A stretch of 28,548 nt of DNA, taken from NCBI GenBank assembly GCA_003024175.1, contig MDYQ01000297.1, positions 1 through 28,548 of the forward strand, given 5' to 3'. Below, one piece after another: positions 3,534-28,528 of this stretch. The first letter of the stretch is position 1, and the number at the start of each line of letters is the position of its first letter. The notes beneath the pieces are model-generated. The model had not been told where the DNA came from. It searched no databases and saw only the letters and a list, made by a program, of their open reading frames with translations. This stretch comes from Planoprotostelium fungivorum (taxonomy: Eukaryota > Evosea > Variosea > Cavosteliida > Cavosteliaceae). The translations under genes and the position numbers were made by a program.

Positions 3534-3615
3534 GACACCTTGGCCGAGTTGGTTATGGCGGTAGACTAGAAATCTACTTCCTTCGGGAGCACAGGTTCGA
3601 GTCCTGTAGGTGTCG
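3534..3615 (+). tRNA. tRNA-Ser (anticodon AGA), copy 1
   Basis: The 82-nt gene folds as a class II tRNA. The 7-bp acceptor stem is GACACCT/AGGTGTC with discriminator G. The anticodon arm is GTAGA-CTAGAAA-TCTAC, giving anticodon AGA, and a long variable arm (TTCCTTCGGGAG region) marks serine. Internal promoter boxes are visible: A box TGGCCGAGTTGG and B box GGTTCGAGTCC. A T run follows at 3617-3621 as a Pol III terminator. No intron is present. A second gene with the same sequence lies on the other strand at 20033-20114. Confidence 0.97.
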
Positions 3616-3719
3616 ATTTTTGCTCATCAAACGGTGCAAGACTGAACTTGGCCGTGTGACGATGTCAGTTTCGCTTGAACCACTCTCTAGAAGAGAAAGA
3701 ATAGAAGAGACTTTTATCT

Positions 3720-6080
3720 TCAGAATACAAAGGTGAGGGCAAAAGAGAGAGCCACAGAGAGGACGACCGACCCGGCTGCTCCTCCAGTCGATACCTCAGA
3801 CAGAGCGCTCGTCGCGATGACCGATCCGTACTACCTCCGTCAGTCTCCATCTACAACGTTGTAGATACTCACGTCCGACACATCTCCCGGAATATGTCCT
3901 CCGTTGTTCCCAAACAAGGTGAAGGTCGAAGCAGTCGTCACGTCTCCGGCCTTGATGACGAGCGTGCCGTTGGCATCGGCGGTCAACCAAGACTTACCAT
4001 CACGGTTGGACTTGAATGCAACTTGGTTCTTCAAATCGCTGAGATAGACGATGGTCCACTGCTCCCAACTGCCGCTGCCGCCGTTGAGTTGGGCTTTGTC
4101 GCGGGCGGAGATCACTTTTTGGTTCTCTTGGTTTTGGATGTTGACGAGGGTGCCGTCGACGTAACGGAAGGACCACAGCTGTGGGAGTGAGCTCATGTGA
4201 TCGCATGATGATGATCGTGATGATCGCGATGATCGTGATGTCTTAAGAGAGGATGACATGCTTCACCTCGGAATAAGTAGTAGCATCCTTCGTTTGGTTG
4301 GTCGTGACGAACGCGTCTTTCTTTCCTCCCAAGAAGTTTTGTGTTCCGTTGGAGTAGATGAAGTAGGTGCCCTCGTTGTCTGAACCCAACGGTGATCGGT
4401 TGCACTGACTGGCCGGTAATTGTCCGTTGTACGTGTAACAACCTGGAATTCTCTTGATGGGTCGGGACAGTCCCAAATTTTCGGTGAGGGGTACGGGGGT
4501 CTGGGTGGGGTGAGAACGGGGTACGTACGTACGATACGTACCGTGACGAAGTCGCAGTTCTTCGCTCCCTGCTTGACGTATGGGGCCAGAGGGGGACAGG
4601 CAGTGACAGTGTTTCCAAAGTTCATGTCTGGGTTCTCGTTCGAACATGCGGGGTGGGCGATCGCCTGACGGACCACCTAGTGATGTCAATCTACACTGTT
4701 GTAGATCGATGAATGGAGCGTTGTAGATGGACGACGTGTCACCTCTTCGTCCCAACCGGAGAGGAAGTCACCGTGGTGACCGTAACCAGTCGGGTCACCC
4801 ATGGACCAGAGGAAATTGTTCTCTGTCCATGCGTAAGTTGATGAAATTTCATCGAAATTCACCTCCGTTACCGTGAGGGAAATCTCCCACGTTGAACGTG
4901 TGTTCGAAGAAAACTCCGGGAATTCTCACGGGGTGGCTGGATGGGCAGTCACCTCCGTTGGGCTGTACAATGTCAGCCGCGAGTTTTCATCGAGTTTTCT
5001 ACCCTCTGTACGGGGTAAGACATGTGAGAGCGGTGATCGGGAGAGTCTAAGTTCTTGCCGTCCCAGCACATGGGGAAGAAGACCTGTGAGGACGTGAGAG
5101 GGAGTCGTGGCTCGTTGTAGATGGACGTACCTGGGTACGGAGACCGTTAGGGCACTTGTAGTTCTTCAGGCCGTTCCAGTCTTCAGATTGGGGGAAGCCA
5201 CCTCCGGCGTAGTTCAAACTGAAAGGAGTGAGAAGAGGGAGATACGAGGAGGGTGGAAGAGATCATGGATGATGACATTGGGTGATATGAGATTTGATGA
5301 TGTTCCCACCAGACGTAGTCGATGGCCTGGTGAGCCACGTTGTTGGGGTCGTAGGTTCTTCTGGTTGGATCTCCGGCGACGATGCGAAGTCCTATAGAGG
5401 ATGAGATCGTGATGGGTGATTCAAGATGGGCTCACCCTTGGGAATGGGCTGCCAGTTGGGGTTTGTCTTGTTCTCTCCGGTCGATCCACCTGATGAACAT
5501 TAGAAGATGCGGAATGGACGACGGACTTGATACCTCGAGAGAGGTAGTATACAGTGAGACCACCGGAAGGAACGAGACTGTATGTATTGTTGGGCCACCT
5601 GTAGTACAGATCGGCTGTCCAGTATTGAGAGTTGTCCACCTGTATGATGTACATCAGATCTGTGACTGCATATGATACCGGGATGGAAAGACGACATACA
5701 TCTCTGATGGAGCAGCTGGTGCAAGGAGAAGCCTTTGTGATATCGTACTGCTCGACGGGGGTGCGAGTCTGGATGGGGTATGAGAAATGGTATCTTGTAT
5801 GAAGAACAGACCTTGGTGGAAGGAGAGAAGTTCGATCCTCCAAAGACACGGTGAACGTGTCCAGAGTATGTTCCAGGGTTCACAATGGGATCTAGACGAC
5901 CTCCATACAGAGTATCACAGAAGACCTTCCAGATGGGTGCCTCATTCTTGTTTGGGTTGTATGCAGCCACTGTAATAGACATCAGATCTGTTCCTGCATC
6001 TCACGTGGAGACGATGCAGATGACTCACAGCAAAGAGAAGACAGGGCCAGGAGGGCAACAAGACCGACGACTGCTCGCAT
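3720..6080 (-). CDS. Secreted DUF1996 protein with beta-trefoil-like tail and GPI signal
   Basis: Fourteen exons: 6080-6029, 5969-5812, 5768-5700, 5639-5534, 5489-5436, 5391-5310, 5218-5131, 5083-5012, 4962-4872, 4822-4743, 4676-4538, 4442-4267, 4178-3873, 3830-3720; 527 residues. The first exon is a signal peptide (MRAVVGLVALLALSSLC). Residues about 20-310 match DUF1996, a family of secreted proteins common in fungi with no settled function: GHVHRVFGGSNF, YYLSRG, VFFPMCWDGKNLD, HRSHMSYP, WSMGDPTGYGHHGDF. Residues about 330-490 look like a fascin-type beta-trefoil (VISARDK, VAFKSNRDGKSWLTADANG). The end is a Ser/Gly/Ala linker plus a hydrophobic tail (SVVLSVALSFALTFVF), as in GPI-anchored proteins. 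The donor after 4538 is ambiguous because GTACGT repeats there; I took the one that keeps frame. A cell-wall or prey-surface role is possible but is inference. Confidence 0.85.
3849..3866. repeat. Perfect 18-bp palindromic copy of the dispersed motif
   Basis: ATCTACAACGTTGTAGAT lies in the last intron of the DUF1996 gene, directly after its GTGAGT donor. It is two head-to-head copies of the ATCTACAACG half-site. As RNA it could form a 7-bp stem with a 4-nt loop. Near-copies with a few changes lie at 4689-4706, 8213-8230, 13177-13194, 15021-15038 and 20481-20498, all in introns. Confidence 0.9.
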
Positions 6081-6384
6081 CGTGGCGCTTTTAAGAATGC
6101 CGTCCCGCTAGGCTTCTCTCCTGTGCCGCAGAAGTGCCTTCCGAACAGGAGAAGTTGTCAGGTTCATGTTAACATAGACCTTAACTGTGCGGTTTAAAGG
6201 TCAAGGTGAGAGGATTCCCAACAACCTTATCGCCCCGGCAGCTAAGACATAGCGCAATATCTCCAGAATGAACGACGTGCGTGTCTCGTGTCGACGTCAC
6301 AGCTTCTCGTCTGCAATGATGTTCGCGATCGTGTTGACATGGAGCGAGAGAAGGAGAAGAGATGCAGGGGAAGATGGTCTCTCT
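6081..6384. other. Intergenic region upstream of the DUF1996 gene
   Basis: This stretch separates two leftward genes: the stop of the repeat membrane protein and the start of the DUF1996 protein. It should hold the promoter of the latter. I see no TATA box I would trust, no tRNA and no supported exon. The 98-residue open frame at 6242-6538 overlaps the true last exon of the upstream gene in the wrong frame. Confidence 0.4.
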
Positions 6385-9300
6385 TTACACTTGTTCGTAT
6401 TTCATCCTTCTGGACTTTCTGACGAAATGGACTACGACGGTGACGATGACGGCAGCGACACCCAACACCATCACTGAGCCCAATCCATAGACGAGAGGAG
6501 GGGAATACCATCTGATGAATGAGTTCAGACGATGACACATGATGAATGTGATAATGTGTCGATGATGTGACGATGTGATGATGTGATGATGTGATGTGTG
6601 AGATGATGTAGACACTGTCAGATGTATCTCCCTCTCACCCCGTGTTCTTATCACCATCTTCTGTATCTGATCCAATCTTCTGGTCACAGTTGGACAAGTC
6701 CTTCTGTCTCTGAGTCATGAGGATCTTCTGTTTGTCGCTCAGCTTGACCGTACACCAACTGAAGTCCGAATACGCTTCCTGTGGTATCACAGCAACCTGA
6801 TCGGGGGTGAAATGAGAGATCTGATCCTAAAAATAGAATTGTCAGCGTTGTAGACGAGCGTAACGCAGCGTACCTTATTATCAGAATTACTGGGAACGTA
6901 CAATCGATAGTTCAAGCTGGAGAACACCGTAGTGGTCATGGACTGTACCTGCGGTGTGTCAATTTCCGAGAAATCTCCATCTACAACGAACCTGAGCACC
7001 GCTCATGGCCGTGAAGAAGTCTTTCGGGAGTAGAGAAGCTTGTGACGTAGACATGACTGATATGGCCAGATTGGTGATACCAGGTACAGACCACGTCTGG
7101 AATCCAGTGATGGACAACTGTCGTTGGAGTGAGTGATGATGACGTCATCATGACGCACGGCCGTCAGGTTACGCATCTGTTCCGCGGTGACCGAACCGAA
7201 CGGAACGGAAGCACAGGCGATCTGAAGCCATGATATCTTACGTGACAAGTCAGGGTGGAGGTGAGAGGATGGATATGATATCCTATGTGAACGAGAGATG
7301 ATGGTGTGATGGCGTTTCAAAGTTTTGAACCCACCGGTGCGCCTGAATCAATCAATTGTTGCCAGTTGGTCAATTTTGAACCTGCACCATCACGGACCTG
7401 TGCGAATCGTTCAGTGAATGCATCTGTGCGTACGGTACTCACGAAGAAGCTCTTGAACTCGTGGATCGTGTTGCTGGGATACCCGCCCGGGGCCCACAAT
7501 TTGGCGGGAAATTGATCTGCGGTGTACAAGTTGAGGAAATCGGCTCCGTACCTGCGGTGGGTGAGTGATGTTTGGCTCGTTGTAGGCTCACTGTGCGACG
7601 AGAGTCACCAGGGCGTCACTGTTCAGACCGGATATACCATCCACGGATAACTTGTATAATTGGGGCAGACTACAATTCGATAAGGTAACCAAGGGAAACG
7701 ATTGGACCTGGTCACGTGAATCTACAACTCGCCAAAATAAAATCACTTGATGAGCTGATAACCAAGGAAATTGACTGGGAGACATGTTTTTGACTTGATA
7801 GCCTGTCAGGTCTTCCAGGGATAGAGGAGATCCCATGCACGTCTCGTTGATAGAGGAGAAGATGTTGGGAGGCCAATAATTGATCTGGCTGGCCCGGAAG
7901 GCTGTCTAATATTAGCTTCCACCGTGTGATGACGTCACGTGACGTCACCACCGGATCATTTACCGGAACAATCTGGTGTAGCTTCGAGATGTCTCAGAGA
8001 AAATCCAGAGAAAATCGAGGGAGGGATGGCATAGACGCATCCTATCGATTGTTATCAGATCGATCGTCTACAACGAGCCAAATCACCTCGGTAAGAGTAT
8101 CGGGGCTGGAAGAGTGAGGTCCAAGCGGGGGAAGGGATGAGAGAGAGAAAGAGTGACGAGTTCATGTAGCCGCAGAACTCAGGTTGAGATCGCATGAGCC
8201 TGTATATCGGTCATCTACAACGTTGTAGAGGGGAGAATCACCTGGCTTGTTCTGTCGTGAAGTTGCTTCCTGCGAGGGGATTCATGTAGTATAATTGAAT
8301 GGGACGGATGACTGAATCGGATCAGTCATCGCATGGAAAACATCATGGCACGATCATCTCATCATGATCGCGATCATCCCATGATCATCATGTCTATGGC
8401 GATCATGATGTCGATGTTGGATGAAACACTAGACTCACTCTCGAAGGAAAGTTGAGGCATCTGAGCCGCAGTCAACAGCATGAACGCATCGTCCGGTAAG
8501 CCATTGGCACAACCCTCCGTGAGACGACCCAGAGTGTCTGGTTGTAGATTGGACACGAATTCGGGTGAAATCTCCTGGCAATCGTACACGATGGTACTCA
8601 TCAGAAAGGGTGTGATGCCGGCAGCCGCTGATGGATTAAAATGGGCGTACTGTTCAGCCGTGAAATCTGAGGGAAATATCAGTGGTGGCGCGTTGTAGTG
8701 CGAGCTCACCCATCGTGGGTAATTGGTTGACTTGGTCCTTCGTGATGAATGACAAGGATGGAGGGGGAATATTTCTCTGACAGTCGGCATAGATGCCACT
8801 GAATGCATTGGGGCGGATCGATTGGATCATCTAAAGGAGTCAGTCCGTCACTTCATGTCGAGATGATGTCGAGATGATGATCGTGATTGCATGATAAATC
8901 ATCAGCGCGATGGAGGACTACTCACGATCGGTCCGAAGGTCGTGCAGACGAAAGGATCGAGCTTGGAAATATCTCTCGCGTTGAAACCTGCGATAGCTGT
9001 GGGGTTCTGTACGTTCATGTAAGACATCTGCCCTCCGCTGACATCTGTGACAGAGTTGAATTGTTGAAGGACGAGGTTTCGGCTGGTTGGATTCACCTTT
9101 GAACGCTTCTTCGAGGATGTATTCGAACTGGGAGGCATTGATGCTAGAGAATGCTTCATACGGTAATCGACCCAGACAGGGACCTTGCATTCCGAAGAAG
9201 GCCGGACTGATAGAGGTGAGAGAGGGTGGGGGAGACGACTCACGGTATGATGAATGGAATGACATCCTTGGATATCAGAGCGCACGTGGAGTCGTTGAGA

Positions 9301-9589
9301 TTGGCAATTTGAAATTGGTTGAAACCAGCCGCAGAAGGAGCATTGAGAGACCACATTTGAATAGGAGAGAGACCTAAAATGAATGTTATCACCAATCACG
9401 GACTACGACAATATATCGCTTACCAATGATGGCGTCTTGAGGAATGACTGCGATATCCTCTTTGGTCACATTCTGGAAGACGGATGGTGGTAATTCGGAC
9501 AACGTGGTTGCATTGAGATGCGCCCAATCGATACCCCCCGCTTGTATTCCCACACATAGACACAACGTCACGACGATGATGGATCTCAT
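6385..9589 (-). CDS. Type I membrane protein of degenerate helical repeats
   Basis: Eighteen exons: 9589-9424, 9373-9244, 9206-9097, 9044-8926, 8830-8710, 8666-8439, 8269-8242, 8199-8087, 8041-7964, 7901-7747, 7707-7592, 7551-7443, 7397-7335, 7221-7159, 7117-6992, 6948-6874, 6826-6639, 6511-6385; 704 residues. It starts with a signal peptide (MRSIIVVTLCLCVGIQA). A long ectodomain of loose 20-35 residue units follows: a P-x-x-x-F core (LPPSVFQNV, LPYEAFSSIN, LPDDAFMLL, IPPSIFSGF, WPPNIFSSIN), a GC or TC pair, and an LT/FT-x-x-Q helix start (FTAEQYAHF, FTPDQVAVI). One transmembrane helix (about 668-692, GLGSVMVLGVAAVIVTVVVHFV) leads to a short basic tail (RKSRRMKYEQV). The pattern recalls mesothelin/stereocilin superhelices, but I cannot assign a family. 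Exon 8 could be split further; unspliced it keeps frame. A surface or adhesion role is inference. Confidence 0.78.
6512..6638 (-). repeat. Intron filled with GATGATGTG-type simple repeat
   Basis: The 127-nt last intron of the repeat membrane protein gene is largely tandem GATGATGTG-like units on the plus strand (clearest at about 6553-6612). It is longer than the usual introns here. Similar ATGATC/GATGTC tracts fill the other long introns of the window. Confidence 0.75.
7930..7947. promoter_or_regulatory. 18-bp palindrome of two CRE sites around an E-box
   Basis: TGACGTCACGTGACGTCA is a perfect palindrome in an intron of the repeat membrane protein. It holds two TGACGTCA (bZIP/CRE-type) sites sharing a central CACGTG. 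Whether any factor binds it is unknown. TGACGTCA recurs about 11 times in the window, partly because CTGAC...CAG is the intron-end pattern here. Confidence 0.4.
8331..8438 (-). repeat. Intron tract of overlapping GATCATGATC palindromes
   Basis: Part of the 169-nt intron 8270-8438 of the repeat membrane protein. Between about 8340 and 8415 it is made of interleaved self-complementary words (ATCATGATCGCGATCAT and relatives). A related tract lies at about 4200-4245 in the DUF1996 gene. It has no coding role. Confidence 0.7.
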
Positions 9590-9768
9590 GTCGAATGATC
9601 GGTGTTCAATGCAAGCGAGGTTACCGACGCGAAGCGAACTAAAATTCGCAGAAAGGCAATGTGGAGACCACCGTCTCAAATAATTAATCCCTCCCAACTG
9701 TGTGGAACATCATCCAAGAGATCCAAGAGGGGCGACATCTTCTTCTTAGGTTGTATGCAGCCGATAGA
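9590..9768. promoter_or_regulatory. Divergent promoter region
   Basis: The 179 bases lie between the start codons of the leftward repeat membrane protein and the rightward ATRX-like remodeller, so both 5' leaders and promoters must share it. I see no clear TATA box. An intron in the rightward leader is possible: an AG-rich run precedes the ATG at 9769. Confidence 0.45.
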
Positions 9769-12700
9769 ATGGCTTCACAACAGTCGAAACGACAGAGGAT
9801 CGAGGACAGTTCTTCTTCGTCAGACGATTCGGACGGTATGATCAGATCGAGAGGTGAGAGCGTAGTGATAATTGGGTTATAATAATCTTTGATATTGTAA
9901 GTGATGTTCAATGTTCTCATATGAAGACAGCTCCAACGAAGTCAAGTGGAGGGGCTGTCAAGAAGATATCCCCTTCTAACGGGTGACTAGCTCGTCGTAT
10001 CGTCTATAGCCATAAACCACCACACAATCTGATTTGTATCATCTGAGACCAGCTCATCGATTGCAGGAATAATAATCATTCATCACCCTCGAACGAAATG
10101 CATCAAGTAAGTCTCTTCTCTACATAACCATCTTTAATCCATCCAGGTGTTGGCGCTCCTCAAAGATCTCCGCACGAACATGCTCAGCCTCAAATTAGAC
10201 GTCCAATACACGAGAGCCGATATACAGAACCTCCAACTTCTATATCGAACTCTCAGGCCCGACTTCGAAGCCGAATTCCAACATCTCAAGGCCAGCATCT
10301 CCGTCTTGGGAGAGAGGATGACCAACGTTGACGGTCGTCCAAAACGTACGCGGAGGTGATGAACACCCCTTTGGAAGATGTCTAAAGACGATTCAGATCT
10401 CAGAGACGCTCGAGTGGGAAGGATTCATCCATTCAAGAGAGCGCTGGAAGTTCGGATGTGGGTCGTCATCGTGATCGTGTCTGTGACGATGGCGATGATG
10501 TCCTGTCTTCGATGCTGATGCTGAAGCTGATTCTTTGTGAACAGAATGATGCCGTAGAGAGTTCGTCTGCTCACGGACTGGAGAGGCAATGTCATTACGG
10601 TGATGAGATGCTCGATGCTCCGCGAAGCCTGACGCTGGAAATAGATCACACGAACGAATCGATATCGCCCATCGTGGACCCCGGCTTCCCATGCCCCCAC
10701 GATTCTCTATCTACAACGAATAGTTCACCACCATCAGCAGGAGCAGTCGACGAGACTACAACGAGCCAAGTCGATCATCTACACCGGCCGGTAGAACGTC
10801 CAGAGAATTCATTGGAGGGTGCGTTGAATAATTACTGCCCGATTGATCATATCAGAATCCTCTTATGTCCTGGGAGATGACATGGTTTCCAACGAAATTT
10901 CACCGTCTGCAAGTCTTCGAGTCTCAACCCCCAGTACCGTGGTACCGATACCGTCCGGTTCCGTGGAGCAGACGGAGGTACCATCTGCACATGCGATGGT
11001 CACGCAGGTAGACGTGACGACTCCAGCGAGAGAATTTATTTCGAGAAGAGAACACGTGTCTGAAGAAGAAATGGAAGACGAAGTCTATTCGGTGAGCTAG
11101 CGTGTGATACGTAATCTTTTATTTTATTTGAATTTATTTTATCTGAAGAGAATTCAGAAATGGGGAGAGGATGACGAAGATTACGAGTACTCTTCTTCGG
11201 ATGCAGAGATAGAGATTCCATCTACAACGAGACGGGAGAGTGGAACCAAGGAGAAAACTCGGAGGAAATCCGCGGAGAAACGGATGGAATCTGCCAACTC
11301 GGAATGGTTTCCGGGATCGGATGACGACGATGATGACGATCACGATGATGAACGCGTGACACATGATGATCACGATGATGAACACCGTGATGGCGTCACG
11401 ACGGCACACAAAACTTCAAAGGAGATGAACGTAGATCCACCAGTAGAAAACATCGACCCGCCGGTAACAAACGCCGACTCACTGGTAGAAAACGTCGACC
11501 GAGAGGTGAGTTCACATCAGCCTCACTATCTTGTCGACATTCTGAAGCCTTTCGTACCACGTTCGTCTACTCTTCTGTCCGAGGAAGAAAGGCCTCTGAA
11601 TGATGATCGAGCGAGAAAAATGTCCATCATAGAGGATGAAATTTCTCGTATCCAACAAGACTGGACCTTGAATCGGTACGTCTCTTCCATCGATGACGAA
11701 AATTCAAGACAGACGTCTCACTACATCGTTGTAGATTGCCATGCCTCAAGCAGGTCGAATTGTACCGCAAGACTCGCTCTTGTCTCTCCCTCTACCATCA
11801 ACAATTGACCAAGAGAGAAGCTTACTTGATCGAGCAGAAGAATGCCCTGTGTGATACTTGTAACACAGAGAGAGACATACGAAGAGGCTGCAGGAATTTA
11901 GAAGAGACGGTGTACCTGCTTTGCCTCGATCGACTCATATTGGGCTACACGGAAGAGCCCGCGGTGAGTTTTATTCACCATCTACAACGAGATGAAATCA
12001 TGTAAGCTGAGAGACGTTCAGATGGTACCGCAGGTGGTGCAAGAGACGAGCGTCGACACGAGAAAGAATGTCGACAGGACAGTAGTGGACGACGGCATGG
12101 CAGATTTCATCGACGATTCCGATGTCATCGCAGATAAACCCTTAAACCAAGCGACCGTACAAGACCGTTCACCGAAGGAAAGAGAAGAAGAAGCCTCAGA
12201 GGATGACTCTCCACACGATTCTTCTTTCGAAAGTTCAGAGGAGGAAGCATCCGAATTAGGATTGGACGATGATTCTATGCAGGAGGGATCTGTATTAGAA
12301 GAGATTGTAGATGAACCAGAGGCGGGAGAAAATTCACGGAAAACGGGGGAGAAAGGTGGATCTACAACGAGCCGAAAGGAAGACGAGTCGGTGAGTTCGA
12401 GAAATGAAAGTGAAGAAAATGAACGTTTCAGCCTCGTCTTACGATGGTTGCACCACCTGGACCGCTTCACCATATCATCAAAACTCTGTCAGGTTGTAGA
12501 TGGAACTTTCTCAGAATCTTCTGACGCATCGCAGATGACATCATCATCACGGATGGTGGACCTTTACGTGAGTCCACGATTTCTCTGAGATCTCCCCGGA
12601 ATTTCTCTTACGTACCCATCAGTGAGGAGTACCGTACGTAAGGCCAAACAGGAGGGTTATCTAAAGAGTAATCCCATCCCTGTGTATGATTCGGACGATG

Positions 12701-15700
12701 ACGTCATCATCAAACCACCCGCTCCTGCATTACCCCCACCATCTGACGTCATCGACATCACACAACAGGAAATTCCGGAGAAACCTCCGAGAAGTTCAGA
12801 AAAATTCCGCAATGTTGCGGGAAATTCGAAGAAAACTCGAAAGAGGAAAAAGAATCCAGTGGAAATAGTTCTCCTCGACGAAGAAGAGGAAGTTCCATCT
12901 ACAACGATACAAGCAGACTCGGACGACAGCGACGACTTCGTTCACATACACAAGTCACCACCGAAATTTCCCGCCCAAATCTCCTCTCAGCCGGTCGTTT
13001 TCCCGCCAAATCCAAAAGTGAGAAGGAGATCTGGGGGTAGGAGAGACATAGAGAGGATATTATCGGAAGAAGAATTAGAAGTAGAGACGAAGAGAGAGAG
13101 GAAGAGGATGAGCGACGTACGACAGAGGGTCGAATTGAGAATGCAGACGGCCAAGGTGGGGGAGAAGGGTGGGTCGATCTACAACGTTGTAGACGCTGAG
13201 AGATGCAGTGGACGGAAGTTACGTCATCAATATTGGGAGGTATGAGGGAGAAGAAGTGATCACCATACCGAAGGGTGTAGGAGAGCCCACGGCGAGTCAG
13301 GTATGTATCTACAACGAGCCAACTATCTTTCCATCACATCTACAACGAGTCAACTATTTCGACATCACATCTACAACGAGCCGAACAATATATCTCACAA
13401 TGAATGCAGAGAGAAGCACTGACTATCTTGTGGAATCACGTGTGCATCGAGAACACTGGATTTCTCATTGCCATGGCACCCGGTATGGGTAAGACCATGG
13501 TAGCTATCTCCTTCATTCAAGTCTATCTACAACACGTCACACGTCACCGTGAGTCACAAAGTATGACGTCATACACACCATCGACATTGTACAGCGGAGT
13601 TCGAGAAGATATCATCCACGGGAAGATGTGCTTGTGTCTTGGTACCGTCCAATTTGATTGGAAATTGGGTCAAGGAATTTCAAAAGTGGTTGAAGGGAAC
13701 TTGCCCTCAGTTGTTCATCTGCAAGAGAGGTGAAGACGTGAAGACAAACGTTGACCTGTGAGACATTCATCTTCCGACGTAATCCAACGTAATCGACGTA
13801 ACCGTCGCTGACGCGTTGTAGATGGAGGGAGACGGGAGGTGTTCTCATCATGTCGAAACAATTATCATCCAGGATATTGAAGAAGAACGACACAGAGTGA
13901 GCCCACAATTTTCCCAGAATCTTCTCACCCCGCTCCAGGGTCATCACCGCCCTCCACAACTCCGATTTGATCGTTGTAGACGAAGCCCACGACATACGGC
14001 GGAGCATCGGTGGCGTCGCTCAACTGATGGATGCCGTGAAGACGAGAAGGAGAATCGCTCTGACTGGTTCACCCTTTCAAAATCGAATCTCAGAGTACTG
14101 GCACCTGTGGAATTTCGTCAACCCTAATTTTCTGGGAAATCGAATGGAATTCAGTGAGTCGATGAAATTTCGGTGGAATTTCGGAATTGAAGGGGGGTAG
14201 AGAATCAATTCGAGAATCCGATACAGAACGGGGGGTGGCAGGATTCGAAGGGAGAGGATGTTGAATTGAGTCGGGATAGAATGGACGTGCTGAGGCAGTA
14301 CCTGAGACCCATGTACTATAGAAGACGTAAGTATATGGTGAAATCTCGTGGAAAACTGATGGAGAATTAGTTTTGAAGAGTGAATCACTACCGGAGATGA
14401 CGGATTTCGTTTTGTCGTTGAATATTACCGACGTACAGGTGAAAACAGTCTCCGTATTTTATTTTATTTTATTCTCTCTCGCAGTTTTCCCTTCATTCGA
14501 CCGTGAAAGATGATAGTATGAAAATGAAACATAGAATGAAATATAGAATTATATATAGAATGACATAAAAAATGAATATGAAATGATACATACAATAAAT
14601 TATAGAATGAATATAGAACAAAATATAGAATGAAAATGAACGGGAGAGACAGAAGAGCATCTACACCGATGTCATTGCAAAGAATTTGGACAACAGTGAA
14701 GAGACGAGATTTCTCAATTGCTACCACAAGTGTGTTCGCGTATTAGGTCATCCTGAGATCTTCTTCCAACACCAGAGAGCCAAGAGAGTGAGACCTCTAT
14801 CTCCATCCATCTACAACTCTCATCGCATCATCGATGTACACACCTCATCGACATCGACATCGACGATTTGACTCACTCATCGATGTCAAATCAGACGAAC
14901 CCGATGATGCATCGAATTCACTGGAACAGTGAGGCACCTTATCCTCTGTCGATGGGCTACAAGATCCTCCTCTTACTCGAAATCACGAAAAAATCCGTAC
15001 AGAGAGGGGAACGCGTGAGCATCTACACCGTTGTAGATCGATCTGACCCACACAGCTCATCATCTTCTCTCAAGCGAAGAAGTCACTCCACTACATCGAG
15101 AACATATTGAAAGAGAACGATTACGACACCATCACGTATCAGTCACCATCCGACATCGACGATTTCAGTCACAGCACCGACAAGCAAGTCCTGCTGATGA
15201 ACATCAAATCAGGTTCCCTCGGCCACAACATCACGATGGCCAGCCGGTGAAGACATATCGGCAGGTTGTAGATTGACATCCATCAGGATGATTATATTCG
15301 ACCCGACTTGGAATCCGACGGTGGAAGCTCAATCGGCGGGGAGAATCCACAGGAAGGGACAGACAAAGAGGACATTCATCTATCGATTCGTCACATCAGG
15401 GACGAGTGAAGATCACGTATACAAGAGGGCAGTGCACAAGGAGATCATGGCCAATGGCATCGTCGATGAGATCACGGTGAGACGTCGATGTGATGTCGAT
15501 GTGATGTCGATGTGATGTTGATGTGATGGGGTATTGAATGAGGACAGAGTACATCGCAATTCAAGAAGGAAGATTTGAGCGAGATCTTTCCATACAAGCA
15601 ACAGCCACCATTACCCAAGAGAATCGAAGATAACGTAGATGACGACATGATCAAAGAGATTGTAGCGGAGTGAGTCTAAGACACACAAAGACCATCATCA

Positions 15701-15842: not shown

Positions 15843-15847
15843 AGAGA

Positions 15848-15853
15848 AATAAA
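15848..15853 (+). terminator. Possible poly(A) signal of the ATRX-like gene
   Basis: AATAAA begins 5 bases after the TGA stop. The convergent DCAF13 stop is only 71 bases away, so the 3' ends of the two genes must be very short or overlap. The hexamer alone is weak evidence. Confidence 0.35.
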
Positions 15854-15913
15854 ACCCCATTTTTGTACGAATATCGAACCAAATGATGAAGAATGGATTC
15901 TTGTACTGTCTCT

Positions 15914-18171: not shown

Positions 18172-18611
18172 GGTTGCTGATTCGCTGCCTTCGGATATGG
18201 GGAGAAATGTCAGATCATCTTGAGAAAGAAAGTGAATCTACAAATACAAAATAAATCGTTCCCTCGCCACATGCAAAGCTCGACAGACTGCTGTGATCTA
18301 TTGAAGGTGCCAGATGTAGATATATATATAACATATCGACCGGCGTACTATATGAATAACATTTCATCCCTCTGTCGGCACGATCAAGCTTCAAATCAAG
18401 CTTCGTACCAATACTATTGTTCATTTGGTGATCATTGTCGTCATCAAGGTGCGACGATGATGAAATTCAGACCACCAATATCATGATCACTCACTTGACA
18501 ACAAGCAGAGCAATAGAGCTATACGAGGTGTTGCCACCGTCACAATGTTCACGAAAGTAGAGACATAGAAGATCACACAAACACAACAAGGAGAGATCAC
18601 ATCAAATGTAT
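18172..18611. other. Intergenic region upstream of DCAF13
   Basis: It lies between two leftward genes and should hold the DCAF13 promoter and the 3' end of the Zn2Cys6 gene. The part near 18300-18420 is AT-rich, with a TATATATATA run at about 18319-18330. Short open frames on both strands show no domain and no splice pattern, so I call no gene here. Confidence 0.4.
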
Positions 18612-19925: not shown

Positions 19926-20032
19926 GATGTTTGAAACGACCTCGCTCCTCGGATATTCCTCCTCGGCTGTCCGAACAAAAAAGGAATTTCCATGAAAGGA
20001 ATTAGAATTCAAATCAATCAAAAAGACAAAAT

Positions 20033-20114
20033 CGACACCTACAGGACTCGAACCTGTGCTCCCGAAGGAAGTAGATTTCTAGTCTACCGCCATAACCAAC
20101 TCGGCCAAGGTGTC
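20033..20114 (-). tRNA. tRNA-Ser (anticodon AGA), copy 2
   Basis: Read on the minus strand, this 82-nt gene is identical to the one at 3534-3615, including acceptor stem, AGA anticodon loop and variable arm. It ends in a run containing TTTTGTCTTTTT, a usable Pol III terminator. The flanks differ from copy 1, so only the gene body is shared. Confidence 0.97.
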
Positions 20115-20225
20115 TTGTTGTGTGCCAGCAACATCTCATTACAAATAATCTGGAAAAATGCAAAGTGATTGTCAAACAACCACTTTCAGTCGATCCTCAT
20201 TGAGACCTCATCATACAAGAGAGAT

Positions 20226-22603
20226 TTATTCCTTACGCCCAGCGATACCCTTGAGTGGTACGTCTTCTCCAGCATAGCCCTCACCCTGCAGACTCTCTTC
20301 CAAGACACTGTCGTAGTGGGAGTGGAGTGGACTCTTCAAAAACAAGTTGTCACTCTGAGCGGCGATGAGCTGCGGGAGGGACTCGTAATCGTGTGATTCC
20401 TTTGCCAGCAAGAGAGTGTAAGGTTTTCCCGCCTCGTGTTTGATGCGATAATGTTTCAGCGTGTTTTGCTGACGAGGTCAGTCTACAGCGTTGTAGATGG
20501 AGTCACCTTCGTGACGAGGGATATGGCGAAGGCGCCTGGGGTATTGCTGTAGCGAATCAACCAAGTTCCCGCCCTTTTTCCCAGCATCTTCTCGGCCGTC
20601 TTCGTGTCGATGAGGCCGTGGAAACCCCTGAGCCCGCCGTGAGTTTTCCCAGAATCTTCCATCTACAACGCTCACCCGATGACGAGGATCTTCCTTATAC
20701 CATCGAAGAAAGATGTTCCGGGCTGTTGCGTGTGAGAAGATTAAATTCAACAATAAATTTCTTCTCTGTTCTCACCTTCAAGGGTCCAAATGACTCTAGC
20801 ATTCTGGCGAAGCTCTGCAGCGTGACGTTCTTATTATCTGCCCGGTTAGGAATCAAAAGCTCGACAAGAACTCTGTGTTCGAACGTATCTTCTTTGGGTG
20901 TCTCCAATTGCAGTGCCTCGAAGAAAGCGGGTAGAAAAACTGCAATGGGAACCTCTCTCTGTCGGATGTCAATCTACAGCGGCATTGTAGAACGTCAGAC
21001 TGACCAGATCCAAAAAGTTGTCGAACCAAAGCTCCCATCCCAACTTGTTCCTCTCGTAGCTGATGTAATACTCCAGAACGATGCGATCGAAAACCTGATA
21101 CGATTCAATTTCATACGAAAAAAGATTCTGAATGGATACACCACGACGGCGTTGTAGATGCACAAATGGCTCGTTGTAGATGAACGTCTTCTTCACCTGA
21201 GTGGAGAGTATGGAAGAGAAGGGAGGTCTGTCTATAGGATTCGGATCCCAACACAATTCCAAGAGAAGTTTCATCGTGTCTCCTGTTTCTGGAGGGACGA
21301 CGGGCCTCTTGCCCGACGTGACTGTATCGAAGACATCTATAGAGGTAAGGTCCACGCCGCTGTGAATAAAATTCACCCTTTTTCGTGGGTAATTCCTCCC
21401 AAGCCCACTTCCAACACAGGAGCTCCCATCTACAACGAGTCAGACTTCGATCTACAACGAGACATCCTCTTCATCACGGCATCATGAGATGCAGCGGTGA
21501 CTCACACTAGAATGCCAAAGGAATATACGTCTGCCTTCTCGTCAAATTCATAGTCTGTAATCATCTCGGGTGCCATGTAAGTTGGTGTTCCCGCTCTTCC
21601 TTCCATGACAAGACTCGTCTTGACTCTGGACAGACCAAAGTCTAAAGAGAGTGAGACGGAGGTGGGATAGAGGTTGTTCATCACCGGCCACTTTGACGTT
21701 CTCGTCTTTGTCCATGAGAAGGTTGTGCAGTTTGAGATCGAGATGGAGGATGGGGGGGTCGCTGCAATGGAGCCAATTCATACCCTTCGCCGTGTGTTCT
21801 GCCATTCTCATGCGCAGCTCGAAAGATGCTTTTGGATCGTATGAGTGATGATATGTGATCGATGTGATACATACGTTCGGGCTTTTTGGGATCCCTGAGG
21901 CTCTTGTCTAAGAGATCGCCGACGGAACCCTTTGGCATGAATTCCATCACTATGAATGTTAATCGCACATGGGTTGTGATATGTAGATGGGTCACCGATC
22001 ATACGAGTGGTGGGTTCTGCACAAGCGCCCATAAATAAAACCACATTTGGATGACGCAATTTACTGTATGGGATGTGAGATGTTGTGAGAGGTTAACGTG
22101 CAAAAGAGATCTGAATAGTTCACTCACACCATCGTGGCGACTTCGTGCTCGAACTCTTCCACTGAATCAGGATTCAGTGTCAACTTCTTCGCCACCACTT
22201 GCAGACCTCTGCACATTCCTTTATATACGGCACCGAACGTTCCCTTTCCTAAATAAGAGTTAACATGAAGGAACATCGGCAGAGTGTTCATACCTATTGG
22301 ATGTTCCCAGTCACATTCTACCTCTCCTGAGTGAAGAGCTGATACAGAATCCTCTGTTCTCCTCGAAGAGGTTGTGCTAGTTCCTCCGCTCTACACGAGA
22401 TCTACTTCAGGAAATGATCCCAAAGACATCGAGTGACTCACCTCTGTCCCTGTCCTCCCGAGACTACTTCCGAGAGAGTCTCTGGACGATATGCGGTGTG
22501 AAGAGAGATCGGTTCTCCTTCCTCGTAGACCTATCCTCCTCTCTAATTCAGAGGATAGCTTCCCAATATCATCGGTCATATCATAGCTGTGCTTGTTCGC
22601 CAT
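20226..22603 (-). CDS. SHK-type protein kinase with C-terminal SH2 domain
   Basis: Thirteen exons: 22603-22442, 22390-22294, 22248-22128, 22063-21996, 21949-21875, 21828-21685, 21641-21506, 21407-21197, 21127-21005, 20958-20776, 20722-20676, 20627-20507, 20468-20226; 576 residues. A polar N-terminus precedes a TKL-like kinase domain: glycine loop GKGTFGAVYKG (about 87), VVAKKL, LRHPNVVLFMGAC, catalytic loop HLDLKLHNLL (about 205), DFGLSR, GTPTYMAPE, ADVYSFGIL, CWDPNPIDRPPFSSIL. A linker (FARMLESFGPL) leads to an SH2 domain at about 456-545 (GFHGLIDTKTAEKMLG, GTWLIRYS). Kinase-then-SH2 is the layout of the dictyostelid SHK family, which binds phosphotyrosine and acts in chemotaxis. The HRD arginine is leucine here. 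The exon starting at 21407 has an uncertain 3' splice site: a WAWEELP reading in another frame would look more like subdomain IX. Confidence 0.87.
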
Positions 22604-22769
22604 GATACTCGCCCTCTTCGAGATGTTGGGTGCCGATAATAATTGGCCCGCCAGATTTCCATTTTGCGCAGTTAATAAGGCCCTCTACTTTGTGTCACAC
22701 GCAACATAGCTTCACCACTGGACGAGAATCATCCACTACTTTCATCCACTTTTATCGATCGATTCAATT

Positions 22770-24793
22770 TCATTCTTCCAGCTTGAACTTGTCTGGGCTC
22801 TGCAGCTGATAACAGAAGACACTTTCAATCACAAACTGTGCGAAAGGTGAGGACCAGGGTAAATAGAAAGTACGGACCTCTGACGTCACCACCTCGGGTC
22901 TGCCTCCCTCCTTCAGCAGCTCCTTCAAGTCCTTCTTATCGTCACAGATCAAGAAGTCACAACCCACCGTCTTGTCTTTCACCTGGACGGATGTTATCAG
23001 ATTACTCTGTTAAACTCGAATATATTGTGATGTGTCGATCTACAACGAGACGGTGCGAACCCTCCCACCTTGCCACCGAGAGCCTGGATGAGAGAGGTGA
23101 CATCTTCGACAGGACGACTCTTCATCATGGAGCCCAGCCGAAAGACTAGGTCTTGAAACGGGCGGTCTCCGTCTGTCAACGTCATCATCTCCATACGTTC
23201 CATCACCGACACTTTACCTCTCCCTCTATACCGATCGATACCCGGGGCGTCGACGTAATATTCCTCTTCTCCAACCCACATTCCCTCTCGGTGAGACTTG
23301 TGAACCCATCTCTGCTCGACCACATGGAGCCCGCTGGCGATGCCCTGGAGGATCTTCAACGTCTTTTTATTCTCCTCCCCCGCGATAACGTGTGTGACCT
23401 GCTTTGTCATCTTCTCGATGATGCTTCCACCCAAAGACTTGATCTTCTTCTTCACGTCGTTCTTCTCTTCCGTGTGCAGACCTGTCGAACATGAGATGGA
23501 GATCAACATCATCGTGATGGTCACCCGTTAAAACGACAACCACTTGTCCTTGGGCCTTCTTGGGAGGTGCCGACTTCTTCGGTGAGGCTACCTTCTTCAC
23601 CAATGACTTCTCGTGGCTCTCATCTTCCAACTTTTTAGAGGTCTTGGGTGTGGCGTTGGCCTTCTTGATCTTCACGACCTTCTCTTCCTTCTTCGTCTCT
23701 CTTTCGTCCAACTTTTTGGACGTTTTCGGCTTGGTTGGAGCTCTCTTCTTTCCTGCAGTCTCCTGCTCTTCTTCCTCTTCTCCCTCTTCAATATTTTCCC
23801 TGGGCTTCCCGTGTTCCTTCTCATCCTCTCTCGCTGCCGCCGTCGTCTTTTTCTTTGAAGATTTGGGCTTCTCAGTCGATGTCTTTAGAGGAGATCGACT
23901 CTTGGGTGGTGGTGTCTTCTTCTTCTCTCCTTCCTTCTCTTCCTTCGTCGGTGTCTTCTTCTTCTCTTCTTTCCCCTTCTCTGTGTGCTCTTCGTCTTTC
24001 GCGCCAAAATCTTCTTTGAACGTTCGACCCCTCTTTCCCGCCTTTTTTCTCGTTGAATCCGTCACCTCGGCCTTCTCTGGTGGATCTTCCGTCTCTTCAT
24101 CATCATCCATGATCTCTCCTCTCTCATCGATCTCCTTCGCTTCTCTCTCCTTCCTCTTCTTGTTGTCTACATCCTCTACGTCCCCTCCTCTCTTCCTCTT
24201 CTTCTTCTCATCAGGTGACTGTGGTGTGCTCTCTAATAAATTTGCATCACTGTGCTCATCGAATGTGTGAGATGGATTGAAAGAGTCCTGGGATCGAGAC
24301 TGTTTCTTGGAAACTGGAGGGAGATCGTAATCAAGGGTGGGTGCATCTGCAGAATCGATGAGACGATCACGTCCCTTGGCATCGAGTTTCTAATGGGAAT
24401 CAGTTCACGGTCACATCGTGTCGTCGACAGATCGTTTCAGAGGATAATGAGACGTGATGATGGTGCGACTCACGAGAGGAGATGGTGTGATTCGGATGGC
24501 CGGTGTCGATGGTTCTTCGTCATCGAATAGTTCAGACCCAGCCGAGTTCGATTCGAATAATACTTTGGGGGCGATGGTGTTCTGACCGACGTCCATCTCG
24601 GGAGAAGATTGAATAATCTCTTCTTCAGGAGATGAATCTACGACTGATCTGTTTAGAGACGAAAGGGAGAAGTGCAACCACCTCTCGCCTTGTGACGTGG
24701 AATTGGGGTAGTGGGTGACATCAGGGGAGATCTGATGGATGAAGTAGATGGTATTACTCTCTTCCTCTCTGGTGTCTTCTCTGACTGAGGCAT
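22770..24793 (-). CDS. Tandem-BRCT protein with Lys/Glu-rich middle
   Basis: Five exons: 24793-24682, 24643-24474, 24389-23525, 23481-23069, 22982-22770; 590 residues. The first 380 are polar and disordered, with S/T-P sites (ERKRVIPSTSSIRSPLMSPT) and long KKK/EEE blocks that should serve as nuclear signals. A BRCT domain covers about 380-460 (KKIKSLGGSIIEKMTKQVTH, then HVVEQRWVHKSHREGMWV). A second covers about 490-590 (LIQALGGKVVKDKTVGCDFL, then EVVTSEVRTFYLP). Paired C-terminal BRCTs usually read phospho-serine marks in DNA repair (BRCA1, MDC1, PTIP and others); which of these it parallels I cannot say. The 865-nt third exon is by far the longest in the window. The antisense 236-residue frame over it is a mirror of the Lys/Glu codons. 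Confidence 0.85.
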
Positions 24794-25368
24794 GATGCGA
24801 CGTGATGGATGGCGGTTGTCGGTGTGATGATGTGACAATTCAAAATTTCATTTTAAATAAGATTATGTCAAGTTTTAATGTTGGGCAATCAAGCGTGAGT
24901 GGCTCACACAAACATACACATCGCAAGTTTGTGTGGGCTTTATCATCCAAGAGAAGAGAGATTCACACCGTACATGACGTGATCGATCTGTTCAGGTTGT
25001 AGACCGTGACGCGTCAGGCTTACATTCATTCGATCAGATCTCGGCAACCGATCAGGTGAATAACTACGTTCATATGTTCACTTTCTTATATCATGATGAA
25101 ACAAATGAAGTTCCGGGGGCTTCGCCCCTTTCCTTTATGACTCTACATTTGGTAGAACCGGATTACAAATCTTCTCTCTGATATAGAATCCTTCGACCTC
25201 TATCGATTAGTCTTTCACATGTCCTGACTCCGTTCAGTTGTAATCCTCTCCACCATACCTGATTCCCCTAAGCTTTAAAATAAAGAGGAGTGATAGATTA
25301 CCTTGATCGCTTTCGCCCATTCAACATCCAATCATCTCCAACTACAAAACCGCCCAAAATTCTATCTT
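24794..25368. other. Intergenic region between the BRCT and DTWD1 genes
   Basis: Both neighbours read leftward, so the right side holds the DTWD1 3' end and the left side the BRCT promoter. No coding exon is supported. It contains one copy of the dispersed motif (GTTGTAG at 24996-25002), a strong GC hairpin near 25116-25128, and a possible C/D-box RNA listed separately. Confidence 0.45.
25086..25188 (+). ncRNA. Candidate small RNA (C/D-box-like) with GC hairpin
   Basis: A box C-like ATGATGA (25093-25099) and a box D-like CTGA (25178-25181) are 78 nt apart and flanked by short AT-rich complementary ends (CTTATAT and TATAGAA, imperfect). Between them lies GGGGC-TTC-GCCCC at 25116-25128, unusually GC-rich for this region. 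No match to U1-U6, SRP or RNase P was recognised. The boxes are short, so chance is a real possibility. Confidence 0.22.
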
Positions 25369-26345
25369 CTATTTCTCAGCTTCGTCTGTCTTGATCGCCT
25401 TGGTGGGTGGTTCCAACTTGACGTAGCCCTCGATGCGATTGAACTCTTTGTTGTTCTTCTTGTAGACCCCTTGGATGAGATTATAGAAGAAGCTAAAGTA
25501 ATACAATAAATTGTCCATCTCCCCACGGTACACCCCTCCGTTGATTCTCTGTTGGTATTCACGATAAAAGTAGTAGATCGCTGCATGATGTGAGTCATTC
25601 GACTTGTGCATGTTCTCGTATCAACCTTCGATGGTGGCGAGGAACTCTCTCCCATGATCTTGGTACCTCCAAAACTTGGTCTCGTATGTCTGTATGCGAA
25701 CACATTGCAGGCCCTGGAGTCTCTCGTTTCTCAAGATTCCCTTCGTCTGAGACCATGTCGAGTCGATGACAATGATCTTCTTGTACTTTGTGACATCGAT
25801 TTCGGAGATGTTCTTCGCATCTGGAGAGGGAAATAAGAGGAGAACCTGACGAGTTTAGATTCGAGGCGTCCTTGTCAGTGATACCTCATCCTTCTCTTGA
25901 CGGTAATCAGGTATGTCTGGATCATCAAACATGACGACGTCGAGGGGAGCTAAAACTTTGGCATGGATGGACGTCTTCTTACTCTTTGGCTCTTTCGGAT
26001 GGTGGATGCTGTTGGAGTGAGATTGAGAATGGAGATGGATGTCACATGTTCAATTGGATGGGGAGTCTCATCTGTGGTACACGATCGATGTCACCAACGG
26101 GCCTGAAGCAGGTGTAGCAGAAGTATTTTCTCGTAGCATTGCAGTTTTCACATTTTCTGAGATCGAATATAAGAGGTGAGATGGATAAGAATGTATGAGA
26201 TTCCTTACGCTCTATCTCCTAGTGTCTTCAGATATTCATGTGAACTGATTTGAAACGAATCAAATGGACCTGCGTTGTCGTTATCTTTCGCTGTGTCTTT
26301 TTCCGTTGCTGTGGGAGGCACTTCTTGGGCCTCTTCTTTAGACAT
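25369..26345 (-). CDS. DTWD1: DTWD1-like tRNA uridine aminocarboxypropyltransferase
   Basis: Five exons: 26345-26209, 26156-26073, 26008-25885, 25845-25626, 25580-25369; 258 residues. A four-cysteine knuckle (C-x2-C then C-x2-C, about 47-62) precedes IHAKVLAP, VLLLFPSPDAKNI, the DTW motif as IDSTWSQTK (about 142), NERLQGLQCVRIQTYETKFWRYQ, and TIEAIYYFYREYQ with MDNLLYYF. These follow human DTWD1 almost block by block. The enzyme uses SAM to make acp3U at position 20 of tRNAs. The second intron (26009-26072) is odd: the only frame-keeping cut gives a GA-AG intron (CACA|GATGAG), where GT would be expected. It shares a 107-base divergent spacer with the LYR gene. Confidence 0.92.
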
Positions 26346-26452
26346 TCTCAATCGCGAATGGGATGAATGCGATGTGATGTCAGAACAATTGAGCACGTGA
26401 CCACATCACATCACATCAAAAGATCAAAAGTCAAGCACATCAAATACTCAAC

Positions 26453-26738
26453 ATGCTGCTCATGCGAACAACGTTAACTGAGCCAGTGACTCGACAGATG
26501 ATATTCAATCTCTACAGAGTAACTCTTCGAGCTGCCGATCGATTAACATTGACTGAACCCCGCGTCTACCTGAATCTGGTGCGAAAAGAATTTAGAAAGT
26601 TCAAAGATGTGAAAGATGAACAAGAGGTCAAGAGATTATATGAGGTGATTTGATGATTGTTTGCAAGTACAAGGTGTTGACTTCTCCCTTCAGATCGGTC
26701 TGAGGTTCCGTGATAATCAATTTGGAGCTGTGCTGTGA
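26453..26738 (+). CDS. Small LYR-motif (LYRM) protein
   Basis: Two exons, 26453-26644 and 26694-26738, joined in phase 0 across a 49-nt GTGATT...CAG intron; 78 residues. The N-terminal helix carries L-Y-R (FNLYRVTLRAADRL). It is followed by the family's R-x-Y and F-R-K-F-K segment (RVYLNLVRKEFRKFKDVKDE) and a final QFGAVL. LYRM proteins are mitochondrial adaptors that bind acyl carrier protein and the iron-sulphur machinery or help assemble respiratory complexes. The short basic N-terminus (MLLMRTTL) could be an import signal. The subtype cannot be assigned from the sequence. Confidence 0.82.
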
Positions 26739-26844
26739 GCAACCTTTGTATCAATCTCCCATCATAAACGCCATTTCCAACGTATACAAGCTCTCGAATC
26801 ATGATGTCGAATGCAATCGTGATGGAGATTCAAAAAAGACTTCA

Positions 26845-28528
26845 TTACAGAATTCGATCGTATGCCGGAGGTGGTGGAATCCACATGGCGATAGTCACGA
26901 CACTCTTCGGCTCCATCATCTCGAGCATGTCCTCTGGAGTCGTCCTCTGATAGTACACGTGCTCGTTCTCTCCGAAACATTTCCTGTGGACGTGCTCGAT
27001 CTCCATGATGCTGTCGTTGATCTCTTGTCCAAATTGTTTCACGATAGAAGAAGACTGTATAGTCAAGGAAGAGATGAAGGAGAGAAATGGGAGGAGAGGA
27101 TACGACTGGTTTCTTCTTGATCTTGCGGATTGCTTCGGTGGCAACGAGGGTGTGGCTGGCGGCTGCACCGTACTTCCTGATGGAAGTCAATCGTGTTCAT
27201 CACGATCGTGATGATGGTGATGGTGATTGCAGACGATGGTTGCATGCATCGATTGGGTGATGTGATGATGTCGATGAGGATGCCGCTGATGGTGTAACTC
27301 ACTGCAAGCTGTACGCATTGAGAGCCATAAACTTGTGAGCTGTCGCCTTGCTGAGAGACATGAGATAGGGCAAAAATTTCTTCAGGGGTGTGGGCAACAT
27401 CTCTTTGTAATTCTTCGTCGTTCTACAAGCAACCACGAACCTCTCCGCATGCTGCCAATTTTGCACCGCCAATTTGGCCAGCAACGGTTTCGAGAGTCCT
27501 AATCCTTTCAGAATAAAATCCGAAATTCGACGGCCTCGTTGTAGATGCTCACCGGTGATACCCTTCTTGATGGTGATGCTCTGCGCTGCGTAACAACAGT
27601 AGTCTTGTAGAGCTCTCATGACGTTCATGTGCAGCTCAGGGGGTCTATCTACGGGGATATCGATCCACTTTGGAATAGCCACGACGTGTATGTACTACGA
27701 TACAGTCGGTGATGTGTTAGACGTGTCTGAGTCACCTGCAAGATGCCAGCGGCCGTTTTGAAGTAGAGGACGGCCTTCTTGGATTCTTCTTCAAAGGATG
27801 CAGTCGAAGTGTGACGCAGAATTTCGGCACCGCGGTTGTAGTGAGCCAAGCCGTATGCCTGAAATGAATTGAGTCGTGTTTTAAAGTGATGATGAGTCGA
27901 TGTGTGATGGAGGATGAGTCGATCTCTTCTCGTGTCGTTCTGTGATGATGGAAGAGTGGTGGTGGACTCACCAGAGATACCATAATGATCTCGTGTTGGT
28001 ATGTGTACGACATGTACGGTTTCAATTTGTCTACGAACGGAGAGGTCCAGGTGAAAGCTGGAGACGATGGTGAGAAGAGAATGCAGATGAAGACGATCAC
28101 TCATGGGTGTGTTGAGCTGTAGGTTCTGGTTGAATTGAACGCTCTGTACCAGTCCAAAGAGAAAAGGGAAATAGTTCTCACAAGCAGAAATGACGGTAGA
28201 GGGTGAACCGTCTTCTAATGCTTGATACAACTGATGACGTCAGATCAGATGATTTCATTCGAAAGATCGTACGATGATTCTGTGAGTGTCTAAAGATGAG
28301 TGGGTCACTCGATTAGATAGATTTAATCGAATCACCTCATCTCTGAATGCACTGGTCTGTGCGAGAATCTCCTAAGAAAAGATTGAACACGTTTCTTCGT
28401 TATTGACTTACTTTAGAGGGAAGATGATCTGTGTGTATAATGATATGGAAGGCTAAGCGTTTCGTCCTCGGGTAGTTCAATTCGAAGATGAGAATGGGTT
28501 GCTTCGGAGGTGCCTCAGAGTCCGTCAT
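26845..28528 (-). CDS. BRO1-domain protein, BROX-like
   Basis: Nine exons: 28528-28412, 28371-28336, 28230-28101, 28057-27972, 27858-27736, 27694-27553, 27504-27303, 27176-27107, 27054-26845; 371 residues, a BRO1 domain and almost nothing else. Diagnostic stretches are FTWTSPFVDKLKPY with HEIIMVSLAYGLAHYNRGAE, KKAVLYFKTAAGILQYI, ALQDYCCYAAQSITIKKG, KYGAAASHTLVATEAIRKIK, ENEHVYYQRTTPE and EPKSVVTIAMWIPPPP. BRO1 domains bind CHMP4/Snf7 of ESCRT-III. Human BROX (411 residues) is likewise BRO1-only but ends in a farnesylated CAAX box; this one ends in YDRIL and lacks it. The ATG at 28528 is the first in frame, with only 20 bases of upstream sequence in view, so an earlier start is possible. Confidence 0.9.

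Follow-up and report, generated by a model that had tools for sequence, protein, structure and literature searches.

A recurrent seven-base word in gene bodies of a Planoprotostelium fungivorum contig: a candidate DNA recognition site

The seven-base word CTACAAC (GTTGTAG on the opposite strand) is present in 46 exact copies, on both strands, in contig MDYQ01000297.1 of the intron-rich protist Planoprotostelium fungivorum (assembly GCA_003024175.1), and its enrichment there is confirmed. The contig, here called the window, is 28,548 bases long, and all results below rest on this single 28.5-kb stretch. We tentatively read the word, which occurs about once per 620 bp, as a strand-independent DNA recognition site within gene bodies, bound by a putative sequence-specific factor, and rate the chance of this reading as somewhat below even.

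Frequency and sequence context of the word

Dinucleotide shuffling gives a mean of 1.82 copies of CTACAAC (maximum 6 in 100 shuffles), and a third-order Markov model predicts 5.4, or 2.7 after masking of the word itself. No 7-mer of the window is more over-represented than CTACAAC, and words overlapping it head the 8-, 9- and 10-mer rankings. The extended forms ATCTACAAC and ATCTACAACG are found 35 and 27 times, against 0.8 and 0.2 expected. The 15-mer ATCTACAACGAGCCA has three exact copies, nine at no more than one mismatch and 29 at no more than three (0.64 expected). A first-pass annotation, made by a model from the sequence, had arrived at exactly the same count of 46 core copies. Its statement that many of these extend to the 15-mer is overstated in view of the three exact and nine near-exact matches, and its starting point for the series, 3849, was too late, since the first copy lies at 1070 and three copies, all in the ankyrin-BTB gene, precede that position.

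When aligned on the core, the copies are conserved from about −6 to +13, with the preferred context TCCAT-CTACAAC-GAGnCA. Beyond these limits, flank identity is at the random level (0.254 and 0.250 over 1025 pairs, with 10 of the 1035 pairs excluded because they are less than 100 bp apart). The 29 sites that match the 15-mer at up to three mismatches contain 54 mismatches, none of which falls within the seven core positions; under equal rates, the probability of this is (8/15)^54, about 2e-15. An 18-mer at up to four mismatches also gives 29 sites (0.5 expected) with none of 87 mismatches in the core, where it should be considered that the 18-mer was derived from core-aligned copies and favours variable flanks, while the 15-mer was that of the first-pass annotation. 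Because the mismatches avoid the core, decaying repeats are disfavoured. Truncated copies of a longer young insert were rejected by inspection, as the GAGCCA part has scattered mismatches, beyond which the match resumes. The earlier remark that the word is too short and too exact for ordinary transposon debris is borne out by the random flanks and the sparing of the core.

In addition to its 35 exact copies, ATCTACAAC has 21 copies with one mismatch (6.5 expected for both classes combined), of which seven alter the first base only and 14 break the core, compared with about 11 by the Markov model. There may be a modest number of broken copies, far fewer than old insertions stripped of flanking similarity would leave.

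Arrangement of the copies in introns and exons

Genes were modelled, independently of annotation, with a small gene finder written for the window and trained on the window itself, with intron length restricted to 35–350 nt by our own choice. The models are approximate: adjacent genes are run together, one of the predicted introns is probably exonic, and borders are uncertain where four copies lie at modelled intron ends (11728, 12493, 20663 and 21430). The models place 34 copies in introns, 11 in exons and one between genes, in compartments of 10.2, 15.6 and 2.8 kb, respectively, which nearly matches the earlier division into 33, 12 and one. The copies and their arrangements are as follows; dyads are given without strand.

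1070–1076, minus: core copy in a modelled intron of the ankyrin-BTB gene, sense
1328–1334, minus: core copy, modelled exon, L-Q frame, sense; T then GAGCCA follow
1699–1705, minus: core copy, exon, L-Q frame, sense; within the BTB domain match
3849–3866: perfect dyad ATCTACAACGTTGTAGAT, two cores, intron
4690–4705: imperfect dyad TCTACACTGTTGTAGA, intron; core 4698 on minus strand
4698–4726, minus: direct pair, 22 bp, cores 4698 and 4720, intron, sense
5114–5120, minus: core copy, exact 15-mer, 47-nt intron, sense
6847–6853, minus: core copy, intron, sense
6981–6987, plus: core copy, 43-nt intron, antisense
7579–7585, minus: core copy, 40-nt intron, sense
7722–7728, plus: core copy, 39-nt intron, antisense
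8068–8074, plus: core copy, 45-nt intron, antisense
8213–8230: dyad, two exact cores (8215, 8222), intron
8541–8547, minus: core copy, exon, L-Q frame, sense
8692–8698, minus: core copy, 43-nt intron, sense
10711–10717, plus: core copy, exon, S-T-T, sense
10756–10762, plus: core copy, exon, T-T, sense; then GAGCCA
11222–11228, plus: core copy, exon, S-T-T, sense
11721–11734: imperfect dyad CTACATCGTTGTAG, core 11728 (minus); modelled intron end, border uncertain
11982–11988, plus: core copy, intron, sense
12362–12368, plus: core copy, exon, S-T-T, sense
12493–12499, minus: core copy, modelled intron start, antisense, border uncertain
12899–12905, plus: core copy, exon, S-T-T, sense
13177–13194: dyad, two exact cores (13179, 13186), 40-nt intron
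13307–13382, plus: tandem array, 31-bp unit, three cores (13309, 13340, 13371), intron, sense
13527–13533, plus: core copy, exon of SNF2 domain, L-Q frame, sense
13815–13821, minus: core copy, intron, antisense
13973–13979, minus: core copy, exon, antisense; encodes V-V-D in the DEAH box; probably a chance match
14811–14817, plus: core copy, intron, sense
15021–15038: imperfect dyad ATCTACACCGTTGTAGAT, core 15030 (minus), 41-nt intron
15265–15271, minus: core copy, 40-nt intron, antisense
20482–20497: imperfect dyad TCTACAGCGTTGTAGA, core 20490 (minus), 38-nt intron
20663–20669, plus: core copy, modelled intron end, antisense, border uncertain
21151–21179, minus: direct pair, 22 bp, cores 21151 and 21173, one exact 15-mer, intron, sense
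21430–21458, plus: direct pair, 22 bp, cores 21430 (modelled intron end) and 21452, intron, antisense
23040–23046, plus: core copy, intron, antisense
24996–25002, minus: core copy, the only one outside the gene models
27538–27544, minus: core copy, 48-nt intron, sense
27835–27841, minus: core copy, exon of the BRO1 gene, Y-N frame, sense; poor flanks, may be chance

As had been noted at first pass, both orientations occur in introns. The 19 sense and 15 antisense copies are each above the 0.44 and 0.33 obtained from shuffled introns, which never yielded more than three of either kind in 500 shuffles. The word is present in 26 of the 146 modelled introns, and the donor and acceptor sites of these are no weaker (P 0.29 and 0.47). 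It is also found in 11 of the 68 modelled introns of 35–50 nt, where the lower limit of 35 nt was set by us, yet intron lengths already become sparse below 39 nt; in introns of this size, a later insertion of 10–19 bp would leave little pre-existing intron. Sense copies often stand close behind the donor, as GTGAGC-(CC)AT-CTACAAC; the offset is between 6 and 11 in eight of 15 introns. Other sense offsets reach 64, and antisense offsets range from 4 to 85. A branch point was rejected as the identity of the word, apparent branch sequences (CTGAC, TTGAC, CTGAT) being seen by eye near the intron 3' ends.

Ten of the exon copies are sense and one is antisense. With synonymous codons shuffled, 1.8 sense copies are expected and none of 2000 shuffles exceeds six, while 0.4 antisense copies are expected and the single one is not unusual (P 0.36); this null holds the protein fixed, and the choice of the residues themselves lies outside its explanation. 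Of the sense copies, four encode L-Q, five T-T (S-T-T in four of them) and one Y-N. The Y-N copy (27835) and the antisense copy in the DEAH box (13973) have poor flanks and may be chance matches. The L-Q copy at 13527 (residues 877–878) is located within a ResIII-profile match of equal lengths (833–883 against 4–54), and that at 1699 within the BTB match, which makes block insertion unlikely at these positions.

Dyads of the form CTACN6GTAG are found at seven places, three with two exact cores and four in which a single exact core is paired with a CTACA arm. Spacers of 4, 7 or 10 give no place, and those of 5, 8 or 9 give one place each. Three direct pairs are spaced by exactly 22 bp (P 0.004, with jittered positions, for any single spacing reaching three), but two of these are 81% alike over 36 nt, and the pairs may lack independence for that reason. 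There are no inverted pairs less than 120 bp apart in the window other than the dyad. A satellite was rejected, as there is a single array of 2.5 copies with a 31-bp unit.

Neighbouring genes, other words and searches

Pfam supports the products of the gene models: SNF2 with Helicase_C, BRO1, kinase with SH2, DUF1996, BTB with ankyrin, BRCT, WD40 with Sof1 (DCAF13-like) and DTW. For Zn2Cys6 the match scores 15.3 bits, short of the Pfam cut-off of 21, and the repeat-membrane product matches no Pfam family. The ATRX-like product aligns with ATRX and ERCC6 without gaps across the removed introns 15015–15055 and 15247–15286. Searches of the PDB with the N-terminus of the BRCT-gene product and with the BTB region gave no matches. 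Short introns are very dense, with 146 modelled for 15.6 kb of coding sequence and many of 37–50 nt, and are probably somewhat over-predicted. Such introns, together with DUF1996 and the combination of kinase and SH2 domains, would be in keeping with an amoebozoan of the Protostelium kind. Protostelium aurantium is described in PMC10639083 as having unusually many minor introns for an amoebozoan.

A 90-nt perfect inverted repeat, 3531–3620 against 20028–20117, corresponds to two oppositely oriented tRNA-Ser (AGA) genes according to Rfam and ARAGORN. A tRNA-derived element was rejected as the source of the word, as these matches are two genes located elsewhere; the reverse word may resemble a tRNA D-arm. 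A putative likeness to a Cas12a-type clustered regularly interspaced short palindromic repeat (TCTAC...GTAGAT) was dropped without a search, the dyads being few and not arrayed.

Two other words are over-represented. The palindromic TGACGTCA, which corresponds to the CREB/ATF-type bZIP site, has 11 sites against 1.1 expected, with eight in modelled introns and three in modelled exons. TTCCCGCC/GGCGGGAA, which resembles the E2F consensus, has seven sites against 0.5 expected; all seven are in modelled exons, and six share the same strand.

18, 795, 1186, 7140, 7930, 7940, 12699, 12744, 13564, 22881, 28235: TGACGTCA sites
1460, 12968, 13000, 20426, 20566, 24035, plus: TTCCCGCC/GGCGGGAA sites
7503, minus: TTCCCGCC/GGCGGGAA site

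Three pattern scans of viral contigs returned 30, 27 and 0 records, among which nothing was judged related. From the set of 30, 13 passed a density filter, and 8 of the 13 were inspected: four have a 42-bp repeat array and the rest scattered copies. The arrays of these four contigs contain ATCTACAAC, with no sign of kinship with the window. None of the set of 27 passed the filter applied to it. In prokaryote genomes, the paired pattern gave 0 records and the 18-bp palindrome 15, with one match each, five of them in Flavobacterium; these matches would represent chance or a conserved locus, perhaps a single one for Flavobacterium. Among the literature matches listed, no title or abstract describes the word as a repeated genomic motif.

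Possible nature of the word

Because it is strand-independent, is used in codons as well, hardly varies in its core and has sharp ends and a fixed symmetry axis, the word is best explained, in our tentative view, by DNA recognition by a sequence-specific factor; a conserved core, a bounded context and occurrence on either strand are features of the DNA site of such a factor, and all three are found here. A putative DNA-binding factor would read the word, scattered over the transcribed parts of genes, in either orientation, whether as a single site, as a dyad on one exact symmetry axis or as a 22-bp direct pair. The copies would arise and be kept through substitutions in introns and at some positions in codons, and introns would hold most of them because they are freer to vary. 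From the sequence, we predict protein binding with DNA rather than RNA as the target, selection on the copies and an effect on transcription or chromatin within gene bodies. The binding sites of transcription factors in general likewise have a core with graded context, a dyad axis and preferred spacing, but the gene-body density is unusually high here and the factor is putative. Of the three suggestions made at first pass, a protein target and a signature word survive, whereas an intron-seeding unit is weakened because nothing is common beyond about 19 bp, both orientations occur and copies are also found in open exons.

Several observations weigh against a recognition site. Three of the ten genes (DCAF13, Zn2Cys6 and DTWD1) are without copies, as the first-pass annotation had reported, and the unevenness of intron copies over the ten genes has P = 0.03. 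Dyads hold only 10 of the 46 copies. With the 18-mer at five mismatches, 8 of 15 sites are broken in the core (2.3 sites of any kind expected), and two-mismatch forms of ATCTACAAC number 105 against about 77 expected. The 21 words that differ from CTACAAC by one base occur 72 times in all, against 51 (standard deviation 7.6) by dinucleotide shuffling and 92 by a Markov model that includes the word itself, and an excess of variants hinges on the null. Finally, copies are biased toward the 5' splice site, with 22 of 30 within 24 nt (four of the 34 intron copies, which touch an intron end, being omitted) against 13.5 expected under uniform placement, a null that disregards the branch-point region and inflates the bias for short introns. 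In introns of at least 60 nt, 7 of 11 first copies are near this site (2.8 expected, P 0.0065). The bias counts against a pure DNA site, since such a site predicts none.

An RNA-level intronic signal, for example a splicing enhancer by the 5' splice site, would account for the intronic location of 34 of the 46 copies and for the 13 of 19 sense copies within 24 nt of that site (7.7 expected, P 0.006). However, antisense copies are equally enriched in introns and show the same 5' tendency (9 of 11; 5.9 expected, P 0.03), only a minority of introns bear the word and these do not have weaker splice sites, and there are copies in exons. A splicing enhancer should have one orientation relative to the transcript, whereas 19 sense and 15 antisense copies are found, and we consider such a signal distinctly improbable. 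The Arabidopsis motif TTNGATYTG of intron-mediated enhancement (PMC6760150) is similarly a short repeated motif within transcribed sequence, found in introns and, once introduced there, in coding sequence, but its sequence is different and the window copies extend along whole genes. Instead of a promoter-proximal concentration, inspection without a statistic finds copies all along the ATRX-like gene and the DUF1996 gene, and the kinase gene has copies in its 3' half. It is also quite unlikely that introners or other small mobile elements once brought the word with them, gave birth to some of the introns and left the copies as relics. The sense copies close behind the donor, the 31-bp tandem array, the 81% likeness of two direct pairs over 36 nt and the presence of the word within introns of 38 to 48 nt would fit such an origin; against it stand a similarity limited to about 19 bp, a core that is intact while the context varies, the two orientations, and exon copies within conserved domains. 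Introner families are similar over the length of the intron, whereas flank identity between the window copies is random and copies are found in exons too. The likeness to introners (PMC9860276) is that of a sequence repeated across many introns, with inverted repeats in some introner families.

A signature word, self-propagating or maintained by repair in the manner of HIP1 and bacterial uptake sequences, would be written and kept by biased repair or conversion, with copies that lack local function. We regard this as unlikely. The occurrence of the word in either orientation and in codons as well as introns, the near-invariant core and the density agree with it, but the copies are uneven across genes, the process needs no spacing or dyad rules, and short words at such density are mainly known from prokaryotes. 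Cyanobacterial HIP1 (PMC4390886) is also a short word of very high frequency, on both strands and with codons included, and biased repair has been modelled as its origin; by analogy, a biased-repair origin is possible for CTACAAC. Unlike HIP1, the word occurs in eukaryotic gene bodies, mostly introns, forms dyads at seven places only, is without a methyltransferase link and has a frequency that derives from the window alone. This frequency is far above expectation (46 against 1.8), but CTACAAC is not a palindromic word, most copies being outside dyads and the context GAGnCA being asymmetric. With one window as the sole sample, and with density varying among adjacent genes, the enrichment might be a local peculiarity confined to this stretch; copies in 7 of the 10 modelled genes, on both strands and with unrelated flanks, argue against this, and we hold it to be very unlikely.

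A strand-independent DNA site in gene bodies is the reading we prefer. A broader possibility, which we consider doubtful, is that a single exact word recurs tens of thousands of times in the gene bodies of a nuclear genome, where biased repair or a reader dedicated to it would keep it, as a eukaryotic counterpart of prokaryotic signature words that possibly marks genes or introns as self. If the word is genome-wide, the search for the factor that reads it or the repair process that writes it would have a countable target, and the introns and the codons of an intron-rich protist would be seen to share one constraint.

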